A stretch of 64,000 nucleotides of DNA, from assembly GCA_005502925.1 (NCBI GenBank), contig SCPD01000012.1, positions 62,001 to 126,000 on the forward strand, read 5' to 3'. The stretch comes from Rhizobiales bacterium Y(2018). Lineage in GTDB: Bacteria > Pseudomonadota > Alphaproteobacteria > Rhizobiales > Aestuariivirgaceae. Below, in pieces: positions 7,252 through 59,722 of this stretch. The notes under the pieces are model-generated. The model ran no database searches. It saw only the letters and a program-made list of their open reading frames with translations, and was not told the DNA's origin. The first letter of the stretch is position 1. Each line of letters begins with the position of its first letter. Position numbers and translations under genes: made by a program.

Positions 7252-8982
7252 ATGCCGCATGAAACGCCGCTCATCGCCACGATCGTCATCGGCCTGGGCC
7301 TGGCCTTCGTCCTCGGCGCCATCGCCAACCGGTTCAAGGTGCCACCTCTGGTCGGCTACCTCCTGGCCGGTGTCGTGGTGGGGCCGTTCACCCCCGGTTT
7401 CGTCGCCGATCAGTCTTTGGCGCCGCAATTGGCGGAGATCGGCGTCATTCTGCTCATGTTCGGCGTCGGCCTGCATTTCTCGCTCAAGGACCTCCTGTCG
7501 GTTAAGGCGATCGCGGTGCCGGGAGCGGTGGTCCAGATCGCCATCGCCACCCTCATGGGTTACGGCATCGCCTGGTATCTCGGCTGGACGCCGGCGGCGG
7601 GCCTTGTCTTCGGGCTGGCATTGTCGGTGGCGAGCACGGTGGTGCTGCTCAAGGCGCTGCAGGAACGGCGCATCCTCGAGACCGAGCGCGGCCGCATCGC
7701 GGTCGGTTGGCTGATCGTCGAGGATCTCGCCATGGTGCTGGCGCTGGTGCTGCTGCCGGCGCTGGCCCAATTCCTCCAGCTCAAGGGCGACGACACCCCG
7801 CATGTCGATCCCCTGGCGGTATATGTGGGGCCCGGCCTCACCGGGGTGCTGGTCATCACCTTCATCAAGGTGACGTTGTTCGTCGCCCTCATGCTGATCG
7901 TCGGGCGCAAGGTCATTCCCTGGCTCCTGCATTATGTCGCCCATACGGGCTCGCGCGAATTGTTCCGCCTGGCGGTGCTGGCGATCGCACTCGGCGTCGC
8001 TTTCGGCGCCGCCAAATTGTTCGGCGTGTCGCTGGCGCTCGGCGCCTTCTTCGCCGGCATGGTGTTGAGCGAATCACAGCTCAGCCATCGGGCGGCCGAG
8101 GAATCGTTGCCCTTGCGCGACGCCTTCGCGGTGCTGTTCTTCGTTTCGGCCGGCATGCTGTTCGACCCGATGAGCCTGGTGCGCGATCCCTTGCCGGTGA
8201 TCGCGACCTTGTTCGTCATCCTGATCGGCAAGTCGCTCGCCGCCTTCCTCATCGTGCGAGCCTTCCGCCATCCGACATCGACGGCGCTCACCATTTCGGC
8301 GAGCCTCGCCCAGATCGGCGAATTCTCGTTCATCCTGGCCGATGTCGGCCTGGGGCTCGGGCTCATCCCGAAAGAGGCGCGCGACCTCATCCTGGCCGGC
8401 GCCATCCTGTCGATCCTGCTCAATCCGCTGGCTTTCGCCGCCATCGATCTCGTCAAAGTGAAGGTCGAGCGCAAGACAGGCGGGGAGGCGGCGGACAGCG
8501 TGGAGGTCGAGGACGATCTGCCCGCGACCACGCTCAGCGATCACGTCGTGCTGGCGGGTTATGGCCGGGTCGGCGGCCTCGTCGCCCAGGCGCTGAGCGA
8601 GGCGGGCAGGCCCTTTCTCGTCATCGAGGATGCGAGCGCCCGGGTCCAGGCGCTCAGGGACAAGAATATCGAGGTCGTCCCGGCCCATGCGGCCAAGGCG
8701 GAGACGCTGGCCGCCGCCAATATCGCCGGCGCCAGGCTCGCCATCCTCGCCATTCCCAATGGCTTCGAGGCGGGCCGGGTGGTCGAGCTCGCCCGCGCCG
8801 TCAATCCGGGGATCAGGATCATCGCCCGGGCCCATTCGGACGAAGAGGTCGATTATCTCAGCAAGCTCGGGGCCGATACGGTGATCATGGGCGAGCGCGA
8901 GATCGCCCGCGGCATGATCGCGGCGCTGGGGGAACCGGCCAAACCGGAAGCTCCCAGCCCCAGCGTACCCGACGCGGCCTGA
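7252..8982 (+). CDS. ybaL: YbaL-type monovalent cation:proton antiporter (CPA2) with TrkA-N domain
   Basis: 576 residues. An inner-membrane Kef/Ybal-type exchanger, expected to move K+ or another monovalent cation against protons. The N-terminal ~400 residues are about 12 membrane segments with family motifs FKVPPLVGYLLAGVVVGP, QLAEIGVILLMFGVGLHFS, VASTVVLLKALQE and GAFFAGMVLSESQLSHRAAEESLPLRDAFAVLFFVSAGMLFDP. Residues ~425-545 are a cytosolic TrkA-N (RCK) nucleotide-binding domain beginning HVVLAGYGRVGGLVAQAL. Length and order fit E. coli YbaL. No ancillary KefG/F quinone reductase lies next to it. The small gene downstream is 37 bases away and may be cotranscribed. Confidence 0.9.
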   Translation: MPHETPLIATIVIGLGLAFVLGAIANRFKVPPLVGYLLAGVVVGPFTPGFVADQSLAPQLAEIGVILLMFGVGLHFSLKDLLSVKAIAVPGAVVQIAIATLMGYGIAWYLGWTPAAGLVFGLALSVASTVVLLKALQERRILETERGRIAVGWLIVEDLAMVLALVLLPALAQFLQLKGDDTPHVDPLAVYVGPGLTGVLVITFIKVTLFVALMLIVGRKVIPWLLHYVAHTGSRELFRLAVLAIALGVAFGAAKLFGVSLALGAFFAGMVLSESQLSHRAAEESLPLRDAFAVLFFVSAGMLFDPMSLVRDPLPVIATLFVILIGKSLAAFLIVRAFRHPTSTALTISASLAQIGEFSFILADVGLGLGLIPKEARDLILAGAILSILLNPLAFAAIDLVKVKVERKTGGEAADSVEVEDDLPATTLSDHVVLAGYGRVGGLVAQALSEAGRPFLVIEDASARVQALRDKNIEVVPAHAAKAETLAAANIAGARLAILAIPNGFEAGRVVELARAVNPGIRIIARAHSDEEVDYLSKLGADTVIMGEREIARGMIAALGEPAKPEAPSPSVPDAA

Positions 8983-48878: not shown

Positions 48879-49796
48879 TCACAGATTCAGCTGGTAGCTG
48901 ACCGGCACCCAGCGGAAAGCGTCGTGTGTGCGCTCGACGAAGCCGAGGCCGGGAAATGGCATGTGATAGCCGGCGACGACGATCCGTTCATCGGCTGCCC
49001 AGGTGAGGAGACGCCGGCGCGTGCGCGCCGCCGCCTCCTTGTCGTCATCGACATTTGCTTGCCAGTCCGGCCGCTGCAAGGACACGATGTAATGGAGGCA
49101 CGTGTCCGACCAGATCAATAGGCGTCTGTCCGCACTTTCTATCCGCCAGGCGAGGAGGCCCGGCGAATGGCCGGCGGCGTTGACCGCTGTAATGCCGGGC
49201 AGGATCTCGTCGCCCGGGGCAACGAAGGTCGCGCGGTCGGCGAGGGGCGCACAATTGCGCATGAAGAGCTCGCGATTGGCGTGGCGCGCCTCCCGTATAT
49301 TCTCGCCGCGCCGCCAGAACTCGAATTCCGTAGCACCAAATACGTAACGCGCGCCGGGAAAGGTGGGCGCGCCGTCCGTCATCAGGCCGCCAATGTGATC
49401 GGGATGGCCATGGGTGAGGACCACGATGTCGATATCCGCCGCCGCCACGCCCAGCTGATTGAGGCTCTGGAGAAGCGTGCTTTCGGGCTCACCGAGACCC
49501 GTGTCGAACAGGACCTTCACCTTGCCCGTGTCGACGAAGACCGGAATGAAGGGATGCTCAAAGCGGTCGGGATCGATGAAGTTCGCCGCCGCGAGCCCGC
49601 GCACGCGGTCTTCCGGCTCACCCAAGGCGAAGCTCTCGGCAAGCCCATCGCGGATATCTGTCGCATCGAGCAGGGTGGCGATCCTGAAGCCGCCGAAATC
49701 GAAGGCGTAAACACTGGGATGCAAGGGCATGGACGGCACTATGTCCGGCCTCCAGGGCGAAGCCAAGGGACCATCTTGTGCTAGCGGAAAGGTCAT
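48879..49796 (-). CDS. Metallo-beta-lactamase-fold hydrolase
   Basis: About 305 residues from ATG 49796; ATGs at 49814 and 49730 are alternatives, and the conserved part begins at VYAFDFGGFRIATLLD. Zinc ligands: HxHxDH in IVVLTHGHPDHIGGL, a further H in VNAAGHSPGLLAWRI, D in LLIWSDTCLHY, and H in VVAGYHMPFPGLG. Residues KVKVLFDTGLGEPESTLLQ are the usual strand before the HxHxDH loop. This is the general MBL superfamily (AHL-lactonase-like or glyoxalase-like enzymes); the substrate cannot be assigned. The longest N-terminus would overlap the leader of the divergent nucleoside hydrolase gene. Confidence 0.85.
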   Translation of the reverse strand: MTFPLAQDGPLASPWRPDIVPSMPLHPSVYAFDFGGFRIATLLDATDIRDGLAESFALGEPEDRVRGLAAANFIDPDRFEHPFIPVFVDTGKVKVLFDTGLGEPESTLLQSLNQLGVAAADIDIVVLTHGHPDHIGGLMTDGAPTFPGARYVFGATEFEFWRRGENIREARHANRELFMRNCAPLADRATFVAPGDEILPGITAVNAAGHSPGLLAWRIESADRRLLIWSDTCLHYIVSLQRPDWQANVDDDKEAAARTRRRLLTWAADERIVVAGYHMPFPGLGFVERTHDAFRWVPVSYQLNL

Positions 49797-49836
49797 GTAT
49801 GAAGCCCGGAGCATTTTTGTTGACGTAAATCCTTAT

Positions 49837-49881: not shown

Positions 49882-50793
49882 ATGAAAGCGATTATCGATA
49901 CGGATCCGGGCGTCGACGATGCGATGGCGATCTTCTACGCGGCCTCCTGTCCGGAAATCGAGCTCATTGGCCTGACCTCCATCTACGGCAATGTCCCCGT
50001 CGAAATGGGAACGCGCAACGCGCTGCATCTGGTCGAGATGCTCGGCCGTCCGATCCCGGTGGCGCAAGGGCTGCCCAAGCCGTTGTGCGGGCGGCACTGG
50101 GAGCCGGTGCATTGGATCCATGGCGAGCAGGGCTTCGGCGCCTTGCCGGCGCCCGCGCCCAAAGGCCGCGCGGTCGACAGTCCGGCCGTCGATTTCCTCA
50201 TCGACCAGGCGAGGCGCCATAAGGGCGAATTGGTGGTGTTCCCGATCGGGCCCTTGACCAATATCGCCGCGGCGATCGAGCGCGATCCCGATTTCGCCAA
50301 GAATGTCGCCCGGATCGTCATCATGGGTGGCGTCGTCCATGCGCGCGGAAATGTGACGCCCTTCGCCGAAGCGAATATCTACAACGATCCCGACGCGGCC
50401 CAGATCGTGCTCAATTCCGGTGCCGAGACGCTTCTGGTCGGTCTCGATGTCACCGACCGTACCTCGGTGACGAAGGAGAATTTTGCGGCACTCGCCAGGC
50501 GGGCGCCGAAATTCGGCGGCTTCCTCGCGGCGATCTCGGATTTCTATATCGATGTCTATCTGGGACGGGGCGCCAAAGGCTGCAGCCTGCATGACCCGGC
50601 GACCGTCATCGCCGCACTCCGGCCCGAGCTCTTCCGCATGGAAGAGGGCGATGTCGAAGTGGGGCTCGATGGCGAGAAGCTCGGCCAGACCGTGCTCAAG
50701 CCGCGCACCGGCCAGAAGACGCGTGTCTGCGTCGCGGCCGACTATGATCGTGTGGTCGACGTGTTTCTCGACGGGATCGCCACGCTCGGCTGA
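49882..50793 (+). CDS. Inosine-uridine-type nucleoside hydrolase
   Basis: 303 residues from ATG 49882. Cleaves the N-glycosidic bond of ribonucleosides to base plus ribose. The calcium-binding signature is IIDTDPGVDDAMAIFYAA; further family features are GLTSIYGNVPVEMGTRNALH, FPIGPLTNIAAAIERDP, VIMGGVVHARGNVTPFAEANIYNDPDAAQIV, and GCSLHDPATVIAAL with the catalytic-site His/Asp. Length is normal (~310). Upstream in-frame codons to 49729 are not protein-like. It converges with the LacI gene (stops one base apart). Next to the AHCY-like/amidohydrolase operon it may release the base from inosine or adenosine made there. Confidence 0.92.
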   Translation: MKAIIDTDPGVDDAMAIFYAASCPEIELIGLTSIYGNVPVEMGTRNALHLVEMLGRPIPVAQGLPKPLCGRHWEPVHWIHGEQGFGALPAPAPKGRAVDSPAVDFLIDQARRHKGELVVFPIGPLTNIAAAIERDPDFAKNVARIVIMGGVVHARGNVTPFAEANIYNDPDAAQIVLNSGAETLLVGLDVTDRTSVTKENFAALARRAPKFGGFLAAISDFYIDVYLGRGAKGCSLHDPATVIAALRPELFRMEEGDVEVGLDGEKLGQTVLKPRTGQKTRVCVAADYDRVVDVFLDGIATLG

Positions 50794-51777
50794 TCAGGAC
50801 GTCTCGCCGCACTGCAGGGCGCCCGCTATTACATGTGAGGGATTATCGACCGCATTCCAGCCGTCGAGCACCTCGAAGGCGCGCCGCGCCAGCTCGGCGA
50901 GCGGCAGCGCGAAAGTGGTGAGGCGGCTGCTGCCATTAAGCGCCTCGCGGATGCCGTCGAAGCCGACGATCGCAATATCCTTCGGCACTCTGAGCCGTGC
51001 TTCGGCGGCGGCGCGCAGGGCGGCCAGCGCCTGCTCGTCTGTTGTGGCGAAGATCGCGCGGGGATGCCCGGGCTTCGCCAGCAATGGACGCAGCGCGGAT
51101 TCGGCGCCAAGCCTTTCGAAGGACACACGATGGAGCCGGCCTTTCGTCGCAAGACCGGCTTCGCTCATGGCCTGTTGCCAGCCGCGCTCACGTTTGCCGG
51201 AGGGGCCGAAATCATCGGGCCCGGCGATGCAATGGATGTCTTCATAACCTTGCGCGATCAGATGACGGGTCGCGGCGATGCCGCCGCCGACATCGTCGAA
51301 GAGCACGCTCGGATCGGGGGCGCCGGCGGGTGCCGAATGGACATAGATGCGCGGGCAGCCATCGAGGCTTTCGGCGTGGCCGGTGATGCTGGTGACGAAG
51401 ATGCCGCGCGGGCGCAGATCGGCGAAAGCGCGCTCGTAATCGAGCTCGACCGCCGGGTCGTAAGCCGTGTTGCCGATGAGGGTGAGGAAGCCACGCGCTT
51501 TGCCCTCGCGCTCGAATTCGCGCGCCAGCTCGCTGAAAAAGGCATTGGAGGAATCGGGCACCAGGAGCCCGACAAGATTGGAGCGGCCGGCCATCAAGGC
51601 GCTGGCGAGCGGATTGCGCCGATAGCCGAGCTCGGCGATGGCCTGCTCGACCTTGACCTTGGTCTGGGGCGCCACGGTACGGGGGCCGTCATTCAGCACA
51701 TAGCTCACCACGGCGGTCGAGGTGCCGGCGAGCCGGGCGACATCGGCAAGGGTAGGGCGGCGGGCTCTATCGGCCAT
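50794..51777 (-). CDS. LacI-family transcriptional repressor
   Basis: 327 residues from ATG 51777. The N-terminal LacI helix-turn-helix is clear: PTLADVARLAGTSTAVVSYVLNDG, then hinge helix RRNPLASALMAGRSNLVGLL. The rest is a periplasmic-binding-type sensor domain (LVPDSSNAFFSELAREFERE, IFVTSITGHAESLDG, VGGGIAATRHLIAQGYEDIHC, IAIVGFDGIREAL). It should bind a sugar- or nucleoside-like effector. It is divergent from the AHCY-like/ABC operon, and a palindrome with central CG overlaps that operon's promoter, so it probably represses it. An in-frame extension to 52197 crosses the promoter and is not coding. Confidence 0.93.
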   Translation of the reverse strand: MADRARRPTLADVARLAGTSTAVVSYVLNDGPRTVAPQTKVKVEQAIAELGYRRNPLASALMAGRSNLVGLLVPDSSNAFFSELAREFEREGKARGFLTLIGNTAYDPAVELDYERAFADLRPRGIFVTSITGHAESLDGCPRIYVHSAPAGAPDPSVLFDDVGGGIAATRHLIAQGYEDIHCIAGPDDFGPSGKRERGWQQAMSEAGLATKGRLHRVSFERLGAESALRPLLAKPGHPRAIFATTDEQALAALRAAAEARLRVPKDIAIVGFDGIREALNGSSRLTTFALPLAELARRAFEVLDGWNAVDNPSHVIAGALQCGETS

Positions 51778-51829
51778 GGTCAGTCGCCTTTTGCTTGTGC
51801 ATAGCACCCCCGGACATTTCAAAGATACA

Positions 51830-51859
51830 TTGACAATAGCAGAAGCTAAGCGCTTAGAT
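51830..51859 (+). promoter_or_regulatory. Promoter with LacI-type operator for the thionucleoside operon
   Basis: TTGACA (51830-51835) and TTAGAT (51854-51859), 18 bp apart, form a sigma-70-like promoter. A 12-bp perfect palindrome CTAAGCGCTTAG (51846-51857) with central CG, typical of LacI-family operators, overlaps the -10 element. It is the only such palindrome in the 139-bp divergent region. Confidence 0.65.
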
Positions 51860-51916
51860 AAGCCATAACCCGTCAAATCTGGCGGGGTCAATGGCGGATC
51901 CGGGGGCAATCGGGGT

Positions 51917-53167
51917 ATGACGCAGGTGGCGACCGGCAAAAGTGATGTCGAGATCGGGCAGGCCCAGATCGAATGGGTGAGCCGCCATTCGCCTGTGCTC
52001 AACGGCTTTGTGCGCGAAACCTTATCCGACGGGGCGCTCAAAGGCGCCCGCATCGCTGTCGTCGTGCATCTCGAGGCCAAGACGGCCTTTCTCGCCACCG
52101 TGCTCGCCGATGCCGGCGCCGAAGTGGTCGTGGCGGGCAGCAATCCGCGCACGACGAGAGGGCCGGTGGTCGAGGCGCTGAAAGCCCGCGGCCTCACCGT
52201 CGTCTCGGCGCCCGATGGCGATCACGTGAGCTGGGAGCGCGAGCTTCTCGCCGCCGCCGATTGGGGGCCGCATTACATCATCGATGACGGCGCCGAGCTC
52301 ACCCTGCGGATGGGCAAGTTCCGGCCCAAGCTTTATGCCAATCTCAAAGGCGTTTCCGAGGAGACGACGACCGGCACGGCGCGGCTCCATGCGCTACGCG
52401 CGGCGGGCAAGCTGCCATTCGCGGCGCTGACCGCCAATGACGCGCGCTGCAAGCATCTTTTCGACAATCGTTATGCGACCGGGCAGACAACACTGCAGGC
52501 GATCCTGCGCCTCACCAACCGGCAGATCGCCGGCGCCCGCGTGGCGGTGATCGGTTATGGTTATGTCGGCCGCGGCATCGCCCTTTATGCCAAGGCGATG
52601 GGCGCCCATACACGCGTCGTCGAGACCGATCCGGTGCGGGCGTTGGAAGCGCATATGGACGGCCACAAGGTCGGCACCGCCGCCGACATGCTGCCGGGCG
52701 CCACCATGGTGATCGCGGCGACGGGCGGCATGCGCGCCGTCGGGATGAGCGAGTTCGCCCATCTCGATCACGATGTCCTCCTCGCCAATGCCGGCCATCA
52801 CGATCTCGAGATCGATGTCGATGCGCTGGCAGGCCTCACCAATGACCGCAAAGAGGCGCGGCCGGGCATCACCACCTTCCGCGTGCAGGAACGCGACCTG
52901 CATGTCCTGTCCGGCGGCGCGCTGGTCAATATCGCCGGTGGCAGCGGCCATCCGGTCGAAATCATGGATCTCACCTTTGCGGTACAAGGCTTGGGCGCCC
53001 ATCACCTTGTCTCCGCCAAGCTTACACCCGGTGTCCATATCATCCCGAAGGCGCTCGACGACGCGATTGCCGCGGCGAAGCTCAAGAGCATGGGGATATC
53101 CTTGAGTGAGGCGCGCCTGGAGCAGGAAGACGATATCGCCCAGTGGATAGAAGGAATGCCCAAGTGA
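51917..53167 (+). CDS. Adenosylhomocysteinase-like protein, copy 1
   Basis: 416 residues of the S-adenosylhomocysteine hydrolase fold. NAD-dependent enzymes of this family split the thioether of a nucleosyl-homocysteine. Catalytic-site residues are largely kept: H51 (VVVHLEAKTA; equivalent to human H55), D in YIIDDGAELT, E148-E149-TTTG, K179, D183 and N184 (CKHLFDNRYATGQ), NAD loop VIGYGYVGRG, and H294 in NAGHHDLEID. It is the short type, without the C-terminal K/Y-bearing extension and central insert of canonical bacterial enzymes. First gene of the LacI-flanked operon. The housekeeping AhcY is therefore probably elsewhere, and this copy may act on a related substrate such as S-inosylhomocysteine. 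Confidence 0.85.
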   Translation: MTQVATGKSDVEIGQAQIEWVSRHSPVLNGFVRETLSDGALKGARIAVVVHLEAKTAFLATVLADAGAEVVVAGSNPRTTRGPVVEALKARGLTVVSAPDGDHVSWERELLAAADWGPHYIIDDGAELTLRMGKFRPKLYANLKGVSEETTTGTARLHALRAAGKLPFAALTANDARCKHLFDNRYATGQTTLQAILRLTNRQIAGARVAVIGYGYVGRGIALYAKAMGAHTRVVETDPVRALEAHMDGHKVGTAADMLPGATMVIAATGGMRAVGMSEFAHLDHDVLLANAGHHDLEIDVDALAGLTNDRKEARPGITTFRVQERDLHVLSGGALVNIAGGSGHPVEIMDLTFAVQGLGAHHLVSAKLTPGVHIIPKALDDAIAAAKLKSMGISLSEARLEQEDDIAQWIEGMPK

Positions 53168-54387
53168 CGACAGCCAATCTCGCTCGAGAGGGGGCAGAGC
53201 GTATCGCCTGGGCCGGGCGCGGCATGCCGGTCCTCAACACGATCGCGGCGCGTCTGGCCGCCAGCGGGCGCTTGCGCGGCAAGAAGGTCGGCGTCTCGCT
53301 GGTGCTCGAGCCCAAGACCGCCAATCTCGCTCTGGCGCTGAAACAGGCGGGCGCCCAAGTCAGCGTCTATTGCGGCGGCAGCTCGACCGAGGCGCGGGTC
53401 GTCCATGCGCTCAGGGCGCAAGGTCTTGCGGTTTTCGCCGAGGCCGGCGCCACGGCGGCGCGCGATCTCGAACTCGCCCGTGATTTCCTGAAGACGAAGC
53501 CGGATATCCTGATCGATGACGGTGCCAGCCTCATCCGGCTGGCTCATCGCGAATTCCCCGATCTCGTTGCCGGCATGATAGGTGCCGCGGAAGAGACCAC
53601 CAGCGGGATACGTCCGCTGCGCGCCATGCATGAGGAGGGCGCGCTGCGCTTACCCGTCATCGCGGTCAATGATTCGCGCATGAAATATCTCTTCGACAAT
53701 GTCTACGGGACCGGGCAATCCTGCGTGATGGCTTTTCTCGACATGACGAATCTCCAGCTCGCGGGGCGCGAGGTGCTGGTCATCGGCTATGGCTGGGTGG
53801 GCAAAGGCGTCGCCATTCATGCCGCGGCTCTGGGGGCGCGCGTGACCGTCGCCGAGCTCGATCCGGTGAAGGCGCTGCAGGCGATCCATGACGGCTATGC
53901 GGTGAAGAGCGTCGCGCTCGCCGCGCCGAATACGGAAGTCGTCTTCGCCTCGACCGGCATCGCCGGCGTGGTGACGGAAGACCATGTGCTGAAATTGCCC
54001 GATGGCGCCTTCCTGTGCACTGCGGGCGGCGGCGATTTCGAGCTGCCGATGGATTATCTGCGCGCGCTCGGGACGGCCAAGGATGTGCGCCAGGGCGTCG
54101 TGGAATACACGCTCCCCGGCGGCGCACGCATCCGGGTGATGGTCGATGGACATTGCATCAATTGCTCGGGCGGCGAGGGCAATCCGATCGAGGTGATGGA
54201 TCTGTCGCTGTCGCTGCAGGCGATCGCGGTCGAGGAGCTGGCGGGTGATGCGGCGCCCAAGGCGCCCGGCCTCTATCCGATTTCAGAGCGGTCAGAACGT
54301 GATGTGGCATTGATCAGGCTCGGCCATGAAGGCGGCGTGATCGAACCGATGACAGAAAAATTGGCAACGGCAATACGGAGCTGGTGA
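53164..54387 (+). CDS. Adenosylhomocysteinase-like protein, copy 2 (active site altered)
   Basis: 407 residues from GTG 53164, overlapping copy 1 by four bases. Same fold and length: WAGRGMPVLNTIAARLAASG, LIDDGASLIRL, E143-E144-TTSG, K174, D178 and N179 (MKYLFDNVYGTGQSC), NAD loop VIGYGWVGKGVA, and IEVMDLSLSLQAIAVEEL. Two histidines that act on the substrate in the family are changed: the H55 equivalent is V47 (SLVLEPKTA), and the H301 equivalent is G289 (CTAGGGDFELP). It still keeps the lysine and aspartate of the hydride-transfer site. It may be a regulatory or heteromeric subunit, or an enzyme with a new reaction or substrate. Confidence 0.82.
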   Translation: MTTANLAREGAERIAWAGRGMPVLNTIAARLAASGRLRGKKVGVSLVLEPKTANLALALKQAGAQVSVYCGGSSTEARVVHALRAQGLAVFAEAGATAARDLELARDFLKTKPDILIDDGASLIRLAHREFPDLVAGMIGAAEETTSGIRPLRAMHEEGALRLPVIAVNDSRMKYLFDNVYGTGQSCVMAFLDMTNLQLAGREVLVIGYGWVGKGVAIHAAALGARVTVAELDPVKALQAIHDGYAVKSVALAAPNTEVVFASTGIAGVVTEDHVLKLPDGAFLCTAGGGDFELPMDYLRALGTAKDVRQGVVEYTLPGGARIRVMVDGHCINCSGGEGNPIEVMDLSLSLQAIAVEELAGDAAPKAPGLYPISERSERDVALIRLGHEGGVIEPMTEKLATAIRSW

Positions 54388-54389
54388 TT

Positions 54390-55703
54390 ATGACGATGGG
54401 TGTTTCGAAGTGGTTGCGCAAGGGCGTTTCAGGCGTGGCGCTGGCCACGGCATTGTTCGCGCTCGCGGCGTGTGGCGAGGAACAGGCGGCGAGCGACAAG
54501 CTCAAGACCGGCCCGATCCCCGAGGCCAAGGCTGAGCTCACCGTGTGGTCGTTCCTGCCCGGCAATTATGAGAAGGGGGTGGACGCCTATAATGCGATCG
54601 CCGCCGAGTTCCAGAAGGCCCATCCGCAGATCACGGTGAAGATCATAGATATGCCGTATGGCACCTATTTCGATCAGGTGCGCAATTCGGTCGTGGCGCA
54701 GAGCGGGCCTGACGTCATCACCATGTATGGCTCGGCGCAGGCCTATAGCTACAAGAACGGCCTCTATCCGCTGCAGGACGCGATCGATCCGGCCTTGCGC
54801 AAAGAGATCAAATATCTGGACGAAAATTATTCGGCTGACGGCAATCTCTATATCCTGCCGACCGGCTCCTATGGCTATGTGATGCTGGTCAACCGCGCCA
54901 TCTTCGCCAAGGCCGGGATCGATCCGGTTGCAGGGCTTGCCACGTGGGATGCGATGCTCGCCACCTGTAAGACGTTCTCCGAGAAGGGCATCCAGCCGAT
55001 GGCGTCGGGCTGGAAGGACGGTTACCTGTTCGAGACCTATCTCTACATGATCACCAGCCAGATGATGGACAAGCCGACGCTGGCCAAATGGGTCAAGGGC
55101 GAGCTCAAGCTCGACGACAAGCTCTTCACTGATGCCGTCAACTACATCATGGACATGAAGACCGCCGGCTGCTTCGGCGACGACAAGGCGCTGGGGCGCA
55201 ACATGTTCGACGACACGAATGTGCAATATGCCACGGGCGGCGCGGCCATGCTGGTCAATGGCGCGCTGAGCCGCGCCATGCAGCTGGTGAAAGACCAGCC
55301 GGAAACGATGGCGATGGCGTTGCCGCAAGTGCCGGCATCGAAGCACAAGAATCTCGTCGATGCGGGTGCCGAAGCCGGCTGGGGCGTCACCAAATGGACG
55401 AAGAGCCCGGAAGCCTCGGCGGCTTTCGTCAACTTCATCGCCAGCAAGGAATCGCAGGAGAAGTTGTGGGCCGCGATCGGCGTGCCGTCCAATATCGCCG
55501 GTTTCCAGGCACAAGCGCAGAACGACATGCAGGCCGCCTATCTGGCGCTGCTCGCCAATCCGGAGAACCATACCGGCTTCGCCGCCTTCCCGCTCCCGGT
55601 CCTGGCGGTGATGGAGCGCAATGCGGCGCCGCTCATGGGCGGCACGATGACGGTCCAGCAATTCATGGAGAGCGCAAACGCGGCTTTCGCCAAGACCAAC
55701 TGA
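54390..55703 (+). CDS. ABC transporter substrate-binding lipoprotein (sugar/CUT1 type)
   Basis: 437 residues from ATG 54390 (a GTG at 54384 overlaps the previous stop). Periplasmic binding protein of the extracellular solute-binding family 1. Lipoprotein signal GVALATALFALAACGEE (lipobox LAAC). Family features: AELTVWSFLPGNYEKGVDAY, FQKAHPQITVKIIDMPYGTY, and MVNRAIF-like LVNRAIFAKAGIDPVAGLAT with WDAMLATCKTF, then GGAAMLVNGALSRAM and VTKWTKSPEASAAFVNFIAS. Most relatives bind oligosaccharides or glycerol-phosphate. Given the neighbours, a nucleoside or thionucleoside ligand is more likely here, but this is inference. Confidence 0.9.
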   Translation: MTMGVSKWLRKGVSGVALATALFALAACGEEQAASDKLKTGPIPEAKAELTVWSFLPGNYEKGVDAYNAIAAEFQKAHPQITVKIIDMPYGTYFDQVRNSVVAQSGPDVITMYGSAQAYSYKNGLYPLQDAIDPALRKEIKYLDENYSADGNLYILPTGSYGYVMLVNRAIFAKAGIDPVAGLATWDAMLATCKTFSEKGIQPMASGWKDGYLFETYLYMITSQMMDKPTLAKWVKGELKLDDKLFTDAVNYIMDMKTAGCFGDDKALGRNMFDDTNVQYATGGAAMLVNGALSRAMQLVKDQPETMAMALPQVPASKHKNLVDAGAEAGWGVTKWTKSPEASAAFVNFIASKESQEKLWAAIGVPSNIAGFQAQAQNDMQAAYLALLANPENHTGFAAFPLPVLAVMERNAAPLMGGTMTVQQFMESANAAFAKTN

Positions 55704-55709
55704 TCCACC

Positions 55710-56618
55710 ATGCAGGCAGTGAAGAGGAGGGGATGGCGGCGGGCGCTCGATGGGGGGCTTGTGCTTCTCGTTCCGGCGATCGTGCTCGAAACGCTCGTCC
55801 TCTTCCTGCCCTTGGTCCATGTCGCCTACCGCTCGCTCTATGACTGGCAGCCGGGCAGCGTCTCGACATTCATCGGCTTCCAGAACTACCAGCATCTGCT
55901 CGCCGACCCGGAATTCTGGCAGGTCATCGGCAACCAGCTCTTCTATCTGCTGGGACTGCCCCTCTGGGTGATCGCGCCGCTCGTCGTCGCCTTTGCGCTG
56001 CGTGAGGGCGTCTGGCGGCCCGGGCTCTTCCGCTCTATTTATTTCCTGCCCGCGGTCATGTCGCCCGCCATTGTCGGGCTCGTCTTCCGCACGCTGCTCG
56101 CCACCGACGGGCCGGTGAATGCGGCGCTGGAGACGAGCGGCCTCGGTTTTCTCGCCCATCCCTGGCTCACCGACGTAACTTACGTGAAGCCGGTCGTCAT
56201 CTTTCTTGTCTTGTGGGCGAGCTTCGGCACCGGGGTCCTCATCTTCTCGGCCGCCTTTGCGGCAGTGCCGCAGAACATCTTCGAGGCGGCGCGGCTCGAC
56301 GGCGCCCGTTTCTGGAGCGAGTTCTGGCACATCGCGGTGCCGAGCGTGCGCGGCACGGTGTTCCTGTGGGCGATGTTCCAGCTCGTCTGCATCTTCCTCT
56401 TCATGTTCGGCTGGATCTATGTGCTGACCGGCGGCGGGCCGGGCCTCTCCAGCGCCACCATGGATTTCTTCATCTATCAGCAATTCATGCGCTTCGGCTT
56501 CTATGGCACGGCGGCGGCGCAGTCGATCGCGCTGGTCGGCGCCATCGTCCTGTTCCCGGCACTGGGCTACGGGGCGCGGGCGCTGATCGAGACCTGCGTC
56601 AAGCGGAGGCGCACATGA
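55710..56618 (+). CDS. ABC transporter permease, MalF/UgpA type
   Basis: 302 residues with six predicted membrane segments; starts six bases after the binding-protein gene. One half of the inner-membrane channel. Seen: ALDGGLVLLVPAIVLETLVL (TM1), SIYFLPAVMSPAIVGLVFRT, and the EAA loop FEAARLDGARFWSEFWHIAVPSVRG that contacts the ATPase, then the typical GWIYVLTGGGPGLSSATMDF stretch of CUT1 permeases. It overlaps the second permease by four bases. Confidence 0.92.
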   Translation: MQAVKRRGWRRALDGGLVLLVPAIVLETLVLFLPLVHVAYRSLYDWQPGSVSTFIGFQNYQHLLADPEFWQVIGNQLFYLLGLPLWVIAPLVVAFALREGVWRPGLFRSIYFLPAVMSPAIVGLVFRTLLATDGPVNAALETSGLGFLAHPWLTDVTYVKPVVIFLVLWASFGTGVLIFSAAFAAVPQNIFEAARLDGARFWSEFWHIAVPSVRGTVFLWAMFQLVCIFLFMFGWIYVLTGGGPGLSSATMDFFIYQQFMRFGFYGTAAAQSIALVGAIVLFPALGYGARALIETCVKRRRT

Positions 56619-57442
56619 AAGCGGGCAGCATGAGCAAATTCCGCACCGGCATCATGGCGCTGATCAGTCTCGCCTTCATCCTGCCGCTGCTGTTCCTCAT
56701 CGGCACTGCGATCCGCACGCGCCAGGACTACATGATGAGCCCCGGCGGGCTGCCCCGCTCCTTCACCCTCGACAATATCGTGGGGGCGTGGACGCAGGCC
56801 GGTCTCGGCCAGGCGCTTGTCGTCTCGCTGATCGTGGCGGTGATCGCCTGCATCGTCTGCGCCTCGACGGCGCTTGCCGGCGCCTTCTGGTTCCGCATCC
56901 ATCAGGGCCGTGTGGCGCGCGGGCTCAATGTGCTGCTCGTCGCCAGCTATGCCATTCCGATGGTCGCCTGGCTGATCCCGGTCTTCGTGATGCTGGCAAA
57001 CGCCCGGCTGCTCAACAATATCGTGGTCGCCGGCATCATCGCCGGGGTGGCTAGCCTGCCTTTCGCGATCTATCTCATCCACACTTTCTTCCGCCAGGCG
57101 CTGACGACGGAACTGCTCGAAGCCGCCGCTCTCGACGGCGCGAGGGTGCTCAAGGTCTTCTGGTATATCGCGGTGCCGATGTCGCGCCCGGCGCTTGCTT
57201 CGGTCGTGGCGCTCGTCTTCGTGTGGACCTTCGGCGACCTCCTGATGGCGGCGACGCTTTTACAAGGCAATCCGCAGGTCTATACGCTCACCCTCGCGGC
57301 GACGACGCTGTCGACGCGCGAGGAGGTCAATCTACAAGGCCAGGCCGCGGCCGCGCTCGTGTCGCTCATCCCGGTGCTCCTGGTGTTCATGGTGGCGCAG
57401 CGCTCGCTCGCCGCCGGGTTTGGAGCCGGCAGTGGTAAGTAA
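56615..57442 (+). CDS. ABC transporter permease, MalG/UgpE type
   Basis: 275 residues from ATG 56615, with GGAGG five bases upstream, overlapping the first permease stop (ATGA). Six predicted membrane segments. Features: MALISLAFILPLLFLIGTAI (TM1), LTLDNI-type FTLDNIVGAWTQAGLGQALV, PMVAWLIPVFVMLANARLLN, IYLIHTFFRQ and the EAA loop LLEAAALDGARVLKVFWYIA. The second subunit of the heterodimeric channel. An open frame runs back to 56213 in another reading of the first permease, but is not coding there. The next gene begins 10 bases before its end. Confidence 0.92.
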   Translation: MKAGSMSKFRTGIMALISLAFILPLLFLIGTAIRTRQDYMMSPGGLPRSFTLDNIVGAWTQAGLGQALVVSLIVAVIACIVCASTALAGAFWFRIHQGRVARGLNVLLVASYAIPMVAWLIPVFVMLANARLLNNIVVAGIIAGVASLPFAIYLIHTFFRQALTTELLEAAALDGARVLKVFWYIAVPMSRPALASVVALVFVWTFGDLLMAATLLQGNPQVYTLTLAATTLSTREEVNLQGQAAAALVSLIPVLLVFMVAQRSLAAGFGAGSGK

Positions 57443-58709
57443 GATCTATGGCGCCGACTGGGTTGTTCCGGTCGCTTCCGCGCCTTTGCGCGACGCGGTG
57501 GTGGCGATCGAAGCGGGCCGCATCACCTTTGTCGGCCCTGCGGCGCAGTTGCCAAGCCATCTGCGCGACGAGGCGATAGACTGGACCAACGGTGTGATCA
57601 CGCCCGGCCTCGTCAATGCCCACACCCATCTGCAATATAGCGGTTTCGACGCGCTGGGCCGCGGACAGTATCGCGGCTTCGAGGATTGGAGCGTCGCTTT
57701 CGAGGCGCATTACGACACCATTCGTAATGCCGAGGAATGGGGCTTGGCGGCGGCACAAGGGGCCAAGCTCGGTCTCACCACCGGGACAACGGTGTTCTCG
57801 GAGATCATCACCAGCGATGAAGCGCGCGGCGCCATCGCCGCGGCGCAGGCGACCGGCATCGAATATCTCGAGGTCATCGCCGAGACGACACGTTCCTGGG
57901 CGAATGGCGGGCGTGAGGAGCTGATCAAATGGCTCGATGACAAAGCGACGATCGCCACCGGCATCTCGCCGCACGCGCCCTATAATCTCGATCCTTCGGT
58001 CGTTGGCGACCTGGTCGAGCTCGCCCGGTCACGCGATCTGCGGCTTCATACACATCTGGGGGAATCGGCGCTCGAAGAGGCGTTCTATCTCACCGGCGAT
58101 CCGGCGGTGCTGTTCATCTATGGCGATCTGCGCGATGAGTATCACCTGGTGCAGCAGAAGGGCTCAGGCCTCAAGACGGCTGCCTATGCCGACAGCGTGG
58201 GACTGCTCGGCGAATGCACGCATATTGCTCATGGCGTCTATTTCGACAGATGCCAGCGAGACCTCCTGCGGGAGCGCAATACACGGGTGGCGCTCTGTCC
58301 GCGCTCCAATGCGGTGATCGGCCTCGCCGAAGCACCGGTCGCGGCCTATCTGGCGGAAGGCCACGACATCGCGGTCGGCACCGATTCACTGGCCTCGGCG
58401 CCGTCGCTCGACCTGATGGCGGATGTGAAAGCCCTGGCCCGGATCGCGCATGATCAAGGGTATCGCGAGAACGATCTGTGGCAACGCGTGGTGCGGGCGG
58501 CGACGCAAGGCGGCGCGCGGGCGCTCGGCATGGCGGAGAAGGGCTATGGCGCGCTCGTCGCCGGCGGTCCGGCGGATCTCGCACTTTTCGCCATCGACGT
58601 GATGGATGGAAATGTCGAACGGGCGCTGGTCGAGCAGGGGGAGGGGCAATGCGTCCTCACCATCGCGCAAGGCCGTATCGTGCATGACAGTCGCAAGCGG
58701 ATGGGATGA
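57432..58709 (+). CDS. Amidohydrolase, MTA/SAH deaminase-like (ATZ/TRZ group)
   Basis: 425 residues from GTG 57432 (GGAG six bases upstream; a TTG at 57420 is possible). Metal-dependent aminohydrolase with a TIM barrel. Metal and catalytic residues: H64-T-H66 in [16 protein letters not shown]208 and nearby E in [15 protein letters not shown]264/H267 in [11 protein letters not shown]318 in [19 protein letters not shown], with the beta-sandwich ends IVPVASA-like DWVVPVASA and [10 protein letters not shown]. The HLGES plus [11 protein letters not shown] pattern is that of adenosine-nucleoside and SAH deaminases, though guanine or triazine hydrolases share it. With AHCY-like and nucleoside hydrolase neighbours, deamination of SAH to S-inosylhomocysteine is the leading hypothesis. 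Overlaps permease and ATPase genes. Confidence 0.85.
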
Positions 58710-59722
58710 GAGACATGTCCAATCTCAAGATCAGCAAGCTCCATAAGCATTTCGGCGCGGTCGATGTGCTCAAGGACATCAATCTCGACATCCGCACGGG
58801 TGAGTTCGTGGTTTTCGTCGGCCCGTCGGGCTGCGGCAAGTCGACCTTGCTGCGCTGCATATCGGGGCTCGAAGCGGCGAGCTCCGGTTCGATCGAGATC
58901 GACGGCCAGGTGATCGACGATGTCGAGCCGGCGCAGCGCGGCATCGCCATGGTGTTCCAGAATTATGCGCTCTATCCGCATATGGATGTGTTCGGCAACA
59001 TGGCCTTCTCGCTGAAGATGCAGGGCCTAGCCAAGGACGAGATCAGGCGCAAGGTCGAGGCGGCGGCGGAGAAGCTGCAACTCACGCCATATCTCGATCG
59101 CCTGCCGGCGCAGCTTTCCGGCGGCCAGCGCCAGCGCGTCGCCATCGGCCGCGCCATCGTGCGCGACCCCAAGGTTTTCCTGTTCGACGAGCCCTTGTCC
59201 AATCTCGATGCGGCGCTCAGGGTGCGCATGCGCATGGAGATCGCCCAGCTCAAGCTGCAGCTTCCCAACACGACGATGATCTATGTGACGCATGACCAGG
59301 TCGAGGCGATGACCATGGCCCAGCGCATCGTGGTGCTGAAGGATGGCAAAGTGGAGCAGGTGGGGACACCGCTCGATCTCTATGAGCGGCCGCAGTCGCA
59401 ATTCGTGGCGGGCTTCATCGGCTCACCGCGGATGAACTTCTTCACCGGCCGGCACGCCGAGACGTTCAAGGCGCATACGGTGGGCGTCAGGGCCGAGCAT
59501 CTCGACATCGTCGGCGCGGGCGGCGTCTGGTCCGGCAAAGTCGTCTATTCGGAGAATCTCGGCGCCGACACATTCATCTATGCCGATATCGGCGCCGAGG
59601 CGCCGGTCGTCGTGCGCCAGCCTGGCAAGTCGGTCTTCGCCGCCGGTGCGGAAATTGCGCTCGTTCCCAAGGCCCGGGAACTCCATCTGTTCGATGAGGC
59701 GGGCCGGCCGGTTCCGAAATAG
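58706..59722 (+). CDS. ABC transporter ATP-binding protein (MalK/UgpC type)
   Basis: 338 residues, ATG overlapping the amidohydrolase stop by four bases. Energises the permease pair. Walker [21 protein letters not shown]-loop [19 protein letters not shown], signature [19 protein letters not shown], Walker [21 protein letters not shown] and switch [16 protein letters not shown]. The C-terminal TOBE/MalK regulatory domain ([48 protein letters not shown]) is slightly shorter than usual (~360-residue relatives). Last gene of the operon that begins at 51917. Confidence 0.94.

Follow-up and report, generated by a model that had tools for sequence, protein, structure and literature searches.

S-adenosylhomocysteine (SAH) is produced by methyltransferases that depend on S-adenosylmethionine (SAM), and it is usually viewed as being recycled by each cell itself. 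A nine-gene locus in the 64,000-nucleotide window analysed here (contig SCPD01000012.1, positions 62,001 to 126,000, of Rhizobiales bacterium Y(2018), assembly GCA_005502925.1) raises the question of whether bacteria may also import SAH and degrade it. At 49882-59722 of the window it joins two genes of the SAH hydrolase (SAHH) family, A and B, to an amidohydrolase (AMH), an ABC importer, a LacI-family repressor and a nucleoside hydrolase (IUNH). The gene content, order, span and operon overlaps described in the initial annotation were all recovered by analysis of open reading frames, Pfam and NCBIfam searches and measurement of the junctions: the nine genes are all open, and each matches its expected Pfam family. 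From the gene content, residues, predicted folds, co-occurrence, an exchange of importers and a palindrome we infer the substrates, directions, reactions and repression proposed below, and we lean, with modest confidence, towards an import-coupled catabolism of SAH or of a closely related 5'-(amino-acid-thio)purine nucleoside.

In the proposed pathway, LacI would occupy the palindrome CTAAGCGCTTAG within the promoter of A when no substrate is present, and a CUT1 importer (SBP-P1-P2-ABC) would carry the substrate inward. AMH would then deaminate the adenine ring, turning SAH into S-inosylhomocysteine (SIH), and A would cut SIH to inosine and homocysteine through the NAD-dependent oxidation, elimination, addition and reduction of the SAHH family. 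B would act with AMH in a separate step, binding a hypoxanthine nucleoside and probably oxidising its 3'-OH; the nucleoside hydrolase would split inosine in the window's genus and on a Roseateles plasmid. The operon comprises:

51917..53167, + strand: gene A, SAHH/SIH hydrolase family, with the motif HLEAKT (AdoHcyase/AdoHcyase_NAD; adenosylhomocysteinase model NF004010, 617 bits, cut-off 512)
53143..54387, + strand: gene B, an SAHH paralogue in which three histidines are lost (AdoHcyase/AdoHcyase_NAD)
54384..55703, + strand: SBP, a CUT1-type solute-binding protein (PF01547, SBP_bac_1; PF13416)
55710..56618, + strand: P1, ABC permease 1 (PF00528, BPD_transp_1; GlcT/UgpA-like, under the NCBIfam cut-offs)
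56615..57442, + strand: P2, ABC permease 2 (PF00528, BPD_transp_1; GlcU/MalG-like, under the NCBIfam cut-offs)
57420..58709, + strand: AMH, an amidohydrolase from a separate family found alongside B (PF01979, Amidohydro_1, 114 bits)
58706..59722, + strand: ABC, a UgpC/MalK-type ATPase (PF00005 and PF08402, ABC_tran and TOBE_2; NF008653, 452 bits, cut-off 432)

Its junctions overlap by 25 bp (A/B), 23 bp (P2/AMH) and 4 bp (B/SBP, P1/P2 and AMH/ABC), the 6-bp gap between SBP and P1 being the sole spaced junction among those measured. The source genome has 7.1 Mb, and its closest named relative among the matches is Aestuariivirga sp. YIM B02566, with a B protein 96% identical.

The function of A is the first step of the answer. 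All 10 A rows of the alignment carry the nucleobase motif HLEAKT (HxExK) and a complete catalytic His/Asp/Lys/Asp/His set, and the best solved relatives are the SAHH enzymes of Thermotoga and Pyrococcus. A separate AHCY, on another contig of the genome, carries HMTIQT (HxTxQ). According to PMC10978960, HxExK enzymes preferred SIH by assay, HxTxE(Q) enzymes preferred SAH, and the lysine of HxExK is able to form a bond with the C6 oxygen of the inosine moiety. Its motif, its full catalytic set and this published preference make SIH hydrolase the best assignment for A, alongside a normal SAH hydrolase in the same genome. The order of reactions put forward in the initial annotation, deamination before thioether hydrolysis, is supported by the motif of A, through the assays in PMC10978960.

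B differs from A at its catalytic positions. Its 35 alignment rows were chosen through two histidine columns and are identical to the 35-row B clade of the tree. In what we take to be human SAHH numbering, the equivalent of His-55 is V in 29 rows, F in 2, I in 2, T in 1 and L in 1; that of His-301 is G in 34 and A in 1; and that of His-353 is N in 35/35, while the A rows have His at all three sites (10/10). Other residues (A numbering) are kept throughout the clade: the nucleobase E and K, both Asp 123-124, E148, E149, T150, K179, D183 and N184 (35/35); the NAD site and the 3'-oxidation residues are likewise kept. The AlphaFold2 (AF2) model of B (pLDDT 92) has a normal SAHH fold, nearest to the thermophilic SAHH 3x2f (TM 0.91). 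In the SAHH homologue AgmF, the mutants H56A, H299A, D129A, K184A and D188A were inactive (PMC8599513). Together, the kept residues, the lost histidines and the AgmF mutants indicate that B should bind a hypoxanthine nucleoside and oxidise C3' without the usual C5' acid/base pair. By its residues B is not a second ordinary hydrolase, and an arrangement of two tandem hydrolases was ruled out by its missing catalytic histidines. Of the two AHCY-like proteins first reported, the family assignment thus stands for both and their equivalence does not, only A being catalytically complete.

A protein without these histidines might have no catalysis of its own and serve A as a partner or regulator in a mixed oligomer, by analogy with vertebrate AHCYL1/IRBIT and AHCY. 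A and B are adjacent in 11/11 A loci (the window and 10 of the 39 B loci; the A clade was found through B, so their constant association is partly by construction), they overlap in the window, and they form the same tree subgroups. Against this, 29 of the 39 B loci lack an A gene within 9 kb, the distance that we call near (some contigs being shorter), and in Leucobacter G428 and G429, Pauljensenia G432 and Canibacter G434 B is the only AHCY-family protein seen, other PF00670 matches remaining below 30 bits. B is therefore not simply a partner of A, and nucleobase, K, D and N residues kept in 35/35 rows are unlike a decaying pseudoenzyme, so we judge a dead partner quite unlikely. The 39-locus table excludes the window and L061, whose best reference match is A although it falls in the B clade of the tree and has AMH and a PAAT importer.

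The most likely role of B would be the release of hypoxanthine from a 3'-keto intermediate. A tentative extension, possible but on the doubtful side, is that B and AMH are a novel pair of enzymes acting on SAH-type nucleosides, in which AMH would deaminate, and B, without thioether hydrolysis, would oxidise the 3'-OH with NAD+ and expel hypoxanthine (or a sulfonium-type 5' group) by beta-elimination, as an NAD-dependent nucleosidase derived from SAHH. Outside the B clade, an AHCY on a Rubrobacter plasmid (L072:7989-9254), adjoining a bile-acid:sodium-type symporter, has P at the His-55 equivalent and G at that of His-301.

Is AMH then an SAH deaminase? It lies far under every listed NCBIfam cut-off (NF012037, 68 of 779 bits; NF005557, 112 of 522), which rules out a named SAH deaminase. 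H68, H70, H185, H212, E215, H271 and D322, which we take to be the metal ligands and the HxxE and SPHAPY residues, occur in 33/33 sequences, and the fold ranking of the AF2 model (pLDDT 92) appears to place adenosine-type deaminases nearest, aminofutalosine deaminase among them. The label of SAH-deaminase-like amidohydrolase thus seems to agree with the nearest folds and fails as a recognised SAH deaminase. W90 and W160 are common to 4/4 DadD-like proteins found in the loci (so named by low identity, L031:8046 being the one scanned against a model); the AMH-family invariants Q72, Y73, E151 and Y274 occur in 0/4 of them, R208 and R295 in 1/4 and R280 in 2/4. By these residues, AMH forms a family of its own that accompanies B.

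The two genes also travel together: among 398 Microbacteriaceae genomes, 58 have B, 60 have AMH and 57 have both, and B and AMH are a module. The Fisher value for this co-occurrence takes no account of common descent. The B count covers matches of at least 40% identity (34-39% matches left out) minus G668, whose locus (L091) holds a protein with the motif HLEPKT, and G708, excluded alongside on equal frame length and score; the sequence was read in 7 of the 58 (G420, G426, G434, G480, G531, G734, G813). Two AMH loci have further features: in Pauljensenia (L036:12550-14889) a flavin amine oxidase gene lies between the AMH and PAAT genes; in Leucobacter soli (L085:8731-11640) AMH and a PAAT importer stand without B, which lies elsewhere in the genome, and a reverse-strand frame that by eye resembles this amine oxidase gene adjoins AMH.

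The importers bear on the ligand. The window's importer consists of SBP_bac_1, two permeases and a MalK/UgpC-type ATPase with TOBE, as in CUT1 systems, and the solved chains nearest to its binding protein in a PDB search are mostly sugar or oligosaccharide binders (best 64 bits). Across the 39 B loci the importer is CUT1 in 7, PAAT in 26 and ECF in 2 (L088, L089), none being seen in 4; the A-type loci L013 and L019 carry a PAAT importer. In 26 aligned PAAT binding proteins (25 of the 26 PAAT loci plus L061) the amino-acid site keeps its Arg in 26/26 and its Asp in 24/26 (exceptions L061 and L019); we take this Arg to be the alpha-carboxylate Arg of glutamine-type binders, with the Arg and Asp roles presumed from GlnBP and HisJ. 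Since sugar-, amino-acid- and vitamin-type importers all feed purine-nucleoside enzymes, a ligand with a nucleoside end and a free amino-acid end, such as SAH, fits best.

Two genomes, Atopobium sp. oral taxon 810 and Olegusella, have a homologous PAAT importer beside a DadD-type deaminase and an HxExK hydrolase that retains all its histidines, an arrangement that ties the importer to the known SAH/SIH pair; the deaminase of L031 scores 396 bits to PRK06038 (cut-off 609). AMH and B lie within the same 9-11.5 kb. The arrangement also cautions that AMH may have another task. The substrate could instead be a purine nucleoside with some other 5' substituent (one like aminofutalosine, a natural product analogous to SAH, SAM or methylthioadenosine (MTA)), with AMH deaminating it and A/B taking the 5' side. 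SAHH-family enzymes with a full catalytic set can differ in substrate: AgmF, the angustmycin dehydratase, rejects SAH, according to PMC8599513. Aminofutalosine deaminase is among the nearest folds of AMH, and a B without acid/base histidines may suit a better leaving group, for example a sulfonium. The PAAT binding proteins, with their amino-acid site, speak against MTA or aminofutalosine, neither of which has a free alpha-amino acid, as does the tie in L031 and L033 between importer and the DadD-type/HxExK pair that converts SAH to SIH. We regard a different nucleoside as rather unlikely, though SAM may yet be the substrate, and catabolism of SAH or a close thio analogue remains the preferred reading. 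In haloarchaeal plasmids (L075:4136-9224, L076:2118-7224), an HLEQKT AHCY adjoins a QueT-like ECF importer, so archaea may use a similar import logic.

How the genes may be controlled can be read upstream of A:

50794..51777, - strand: LacI-family repressor (PF00356 and PF13377, LacI and Peripla_BP_3), divergent from the operon
51846..51857, strandless: perfect palindrome CTAAGCGCTTAG, putative LacI operator, from the sequence and its recurrence upstream of A
51830..51859, + strand: putative promoter TTGACA-18-TTAGAT, overlapping the operator, read from sequence

The divergent LacI and A genes are separated by 139 bp; a first mechanical call of the LacI start at 52197 was too long, and 51777 (M of MADRARRPTL) was taken. 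CTAAGCGCTTAG occurs as a single exact copy in the 7.1 Mb genome, inside the putative promoter of A. The core TAAGCGCTTA lies upstream of A in 6 of 8 loci with A and LacI, and TAAGCGCTAA in the other 2 (both Leucobacter), so that the core or a one-base variant is present in 8/8 (the window, L012, L014, L015, L017, L018, L071, L087); LacI relatives adjoin A/B in all seven comparison loci. In the promoter table the first hexamers of L015 and L018 were added post hoc, once seen, and a generic promoter scanner reported no promoter upstream of A at its thresholds. L088 and L089 hold LacI relatives 57-59% identical to the window's beside B, although the site TAAGCGCT(T/A)A was not found in either. 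A LacI regulon was ruled out by the single exact site in the source genome, the genome-wide search covering exact sites only. The repressor looks dedicated to the A-B operon, and the gene set is probably under its control.

The gene set proved to be conserved together across phyla. A scan of a species-genome collection with B gave 58 loci (gene picking in the GC-rich ones was rough). A, B, SBP, P1, P2, AMH and LacI recur in a Microbacteriaceae metagenome-assembled genome (MAG; L014), in Leucobacter soli (L015) and in a Pseudomonadales MAG (L017, with LacI downstream), and an uncultured Leucobacter (L018) has the same A-to-AMH and LacI set, cut by the contig end; among these four, an orthologous ATPase was seen only in L017. 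A plasmid of Roseateles sp. XES5 (L071; record flagged UNVERIFIED_ORG) carries the full set with IUNH, in the same order and with 65-79% protein identity. The same order on this plasmid, in Actinomycetota and in the Pseudomonadales MAG argues that the set is not a chance assembly. Other Rhizobiales, where the initial annotation had suggested looking, nearly lack it: B is present in 1 of 397 genomes of the order, the source genome itself, and the set in 3 of 60 genomes of relatives, source included, all of one genus, which rules out an order-specific set. Independent searches with A found one of the 398 Microbacteriaceae genomes (E 1e-110), with B also present, and, among plasmids (E 1e-90), Roseateles only.

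The A clade (10 rows) and the B clade (35 rows) each have 100/100 tree support, and since both trees contain the same groupings (L013 with L017, L015 with L018, and the window with L012 and L071), the A-B pair is, by these trees, inherited as a unit across phyla. A housekeeping-type AHCY is present in the hosts of the window, L012, L014, L016, L019, L020 and L024; Leucobacter G421, G424, G428 and G429 have LuxS, their AHCY-family genes being A/B or B only; neither LuxS nor another AHCY was seen in Pauljensenia G432 and Canibacter G434. In carriers with AHCY or LuxS the module thus supplements SAH recycling and does not replace it.

The last gene would extend the proposed pathway beyond inosine in some carriers:

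49882..50793, + strand: IUNH, inosine-uridine-type nucleoside hydrolase (PF01156, IU_nuc_hydro, 300 bits)

IUNH falls under all four listed NCBIfam models (RihC, RihA and UriH among them; best RihC, 216 of 382 bits). It is convergent with LacI, with zero gap between them, and so stands beside the operon and outside it; on the Roseateles plasmid a gene 73% identical to it comes after ABC. Its membership of the operon was rejected, as no such palindrome lies upstream of it and it is absent near most A/B loci. The nucleoside hydrolase of the initial annotation is thus linked in two lineages, the window's genus and the Roseateles plasmid, and does not share the operator; IUNH is an optional neighbour, outside the conserved core. 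In a congener (G002, L087:12694-13621) it reads as two overlapping frames and may be broken. Upstream, at 48879-49814 of the window, a lactonase-like hydrolase with a metallo-beta-lactamase fold (108 bits against the AidB cut-off of 360) is encoded; across the loci compared, it stands next to IUNH in the window's genus alone.

The presence of IUNH is a point in favour of a generic purine nucleoside catabolism, in which adenosine or inosine is imported, AMH is an adenosine deaminase and A/B have side-activities, and AHCY-like proteins with HLEPKT do occur in actinobacterial clusters with IUNH and purine nucleoside phosphorylase (PNP). These proteins, however, have a different set of partners, PAAT importers with a kept amino-acid site are unsuited to plain nucleosides, and IUNH lies outside the core; we consider this explanation improbable, the least likely of those weighed, and retain SAH or a close thio analogue as the substrate. 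The HLEPKT clusters (Microbacteriaceae L078, L079, L084, L091, L092; AHCY-like gene at 7.8-10.4 kb) hold PNP, a double-length ABC ATPase gene and an adjoining nucleoside hydrolase 35-37% identical to the window's, and a Pfam scan of L078 adds IclR, adenosine deaminase and phosphomannomutase. A further AHCY-like clade of 16 rows (L041, L046-L048, L050-L053, L055-L060, L062, L063) has HVEAKT/HVEPKT/HIEPKT-type motifs and N for His-353; a member adjoins a nucleoside:H+ symporter in L056 (Providencia) and in L059, which also has an inosine-type PNP.

Neighbouring genes bear on the fate of homocysteine. One Cys/Met-family pyridoxal phosphate (PLP) enzyme is encoded upstream of the Roseateles operon (L071; PRK05968 subfamily, 696 bits, cut-off 508), and a second, cystathionine gamma-lyase-like (340 bits, cut-off 440), directly divergent from B in L094. 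The former (L071:2315-8460) has a GntR gene and another CUT1 importer nearby; the latter lies in the region 7443-8966. At E 1e-20 nothing in the open reading frames of L012-L069 matched the L071 gene, which has a 36% relative in L094, and Pfam searches of 20 flanking proteins from several loci, covering part of the flanks, gave no homocysteine enzyme in common. Such PLP enzymes beside the module would make sense if it yields a sulfur amino acid; two loci are few.

If the proposed pathway is correct, many bacteria scavenge external SAH or a close analogue via dedicated importers, following the route, hitherto described in archaea and Thermotoga, in which deamination comes first. A substrate would be named simultaneously for members of three transporter families, many genes annotated just as 'adenosylhomocysteinase' would be assigned, and a large clade of SAHH paralogues would be exposed whose chemistry is necessarily unlike the textbook reaction. 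If B and AMH act as a pair, three unrelated importer classes serve a pair common in Microbacteriaceae (57/398). Among the matches listed, the open-licence PMC literature gave no description of the gene set or of a degradation-coupled SAH importer; as far as that literature shows, three things are new: the coupling of a bacterial version to an importer, the exchange of importers, and the His-less SAHH clade locked to an amidohydrolase.

Among known systems, the DadD and SIHH proteins of Methanocaldococcus and Thermotoga likewise combine a deaminase with an HxExK hydrolase, converting SAH to SIH and then to inosine and homocysteine. That route is described as intracellular SAM recycling (PMC10978960), whereas the window adds a dedicated importer, a repressor and a palindrome, and has an amidohydrolase that is not DadD as well as B, a paralogue without the catalytic histidines; the genome also keeps an HxTxQ AHCY elsewhere. 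Canonical AHCY shares its fold and NAD site with A and B, but A has HxExK, B is without the catalytic histidines, and neither is the housekeeping enzyme. AgmF is also an SAHH homologue acting on other nucleosides; it needs H56 and H299 (PMC8599513), whose presumed equivalents are gone in B. The MTA/SAH, adenosine and aminofutalosine deaminases (TRZ/ATZ) have the fold, metal residues, HxxE and SPHAPY His of AMH, which has family-specific invariants of its own. The chlamydial SAM/SAH transporter is a bacterial transporter said to handle SAH (PMC3937554); it supplies SAM to an intracellular bacterium and is not a degradation-coupled ABC or ECF importer. The CUT1, PAAT and ECF importers are ordinary members of their families, and all three serve the B/AMH core in different bacteria.

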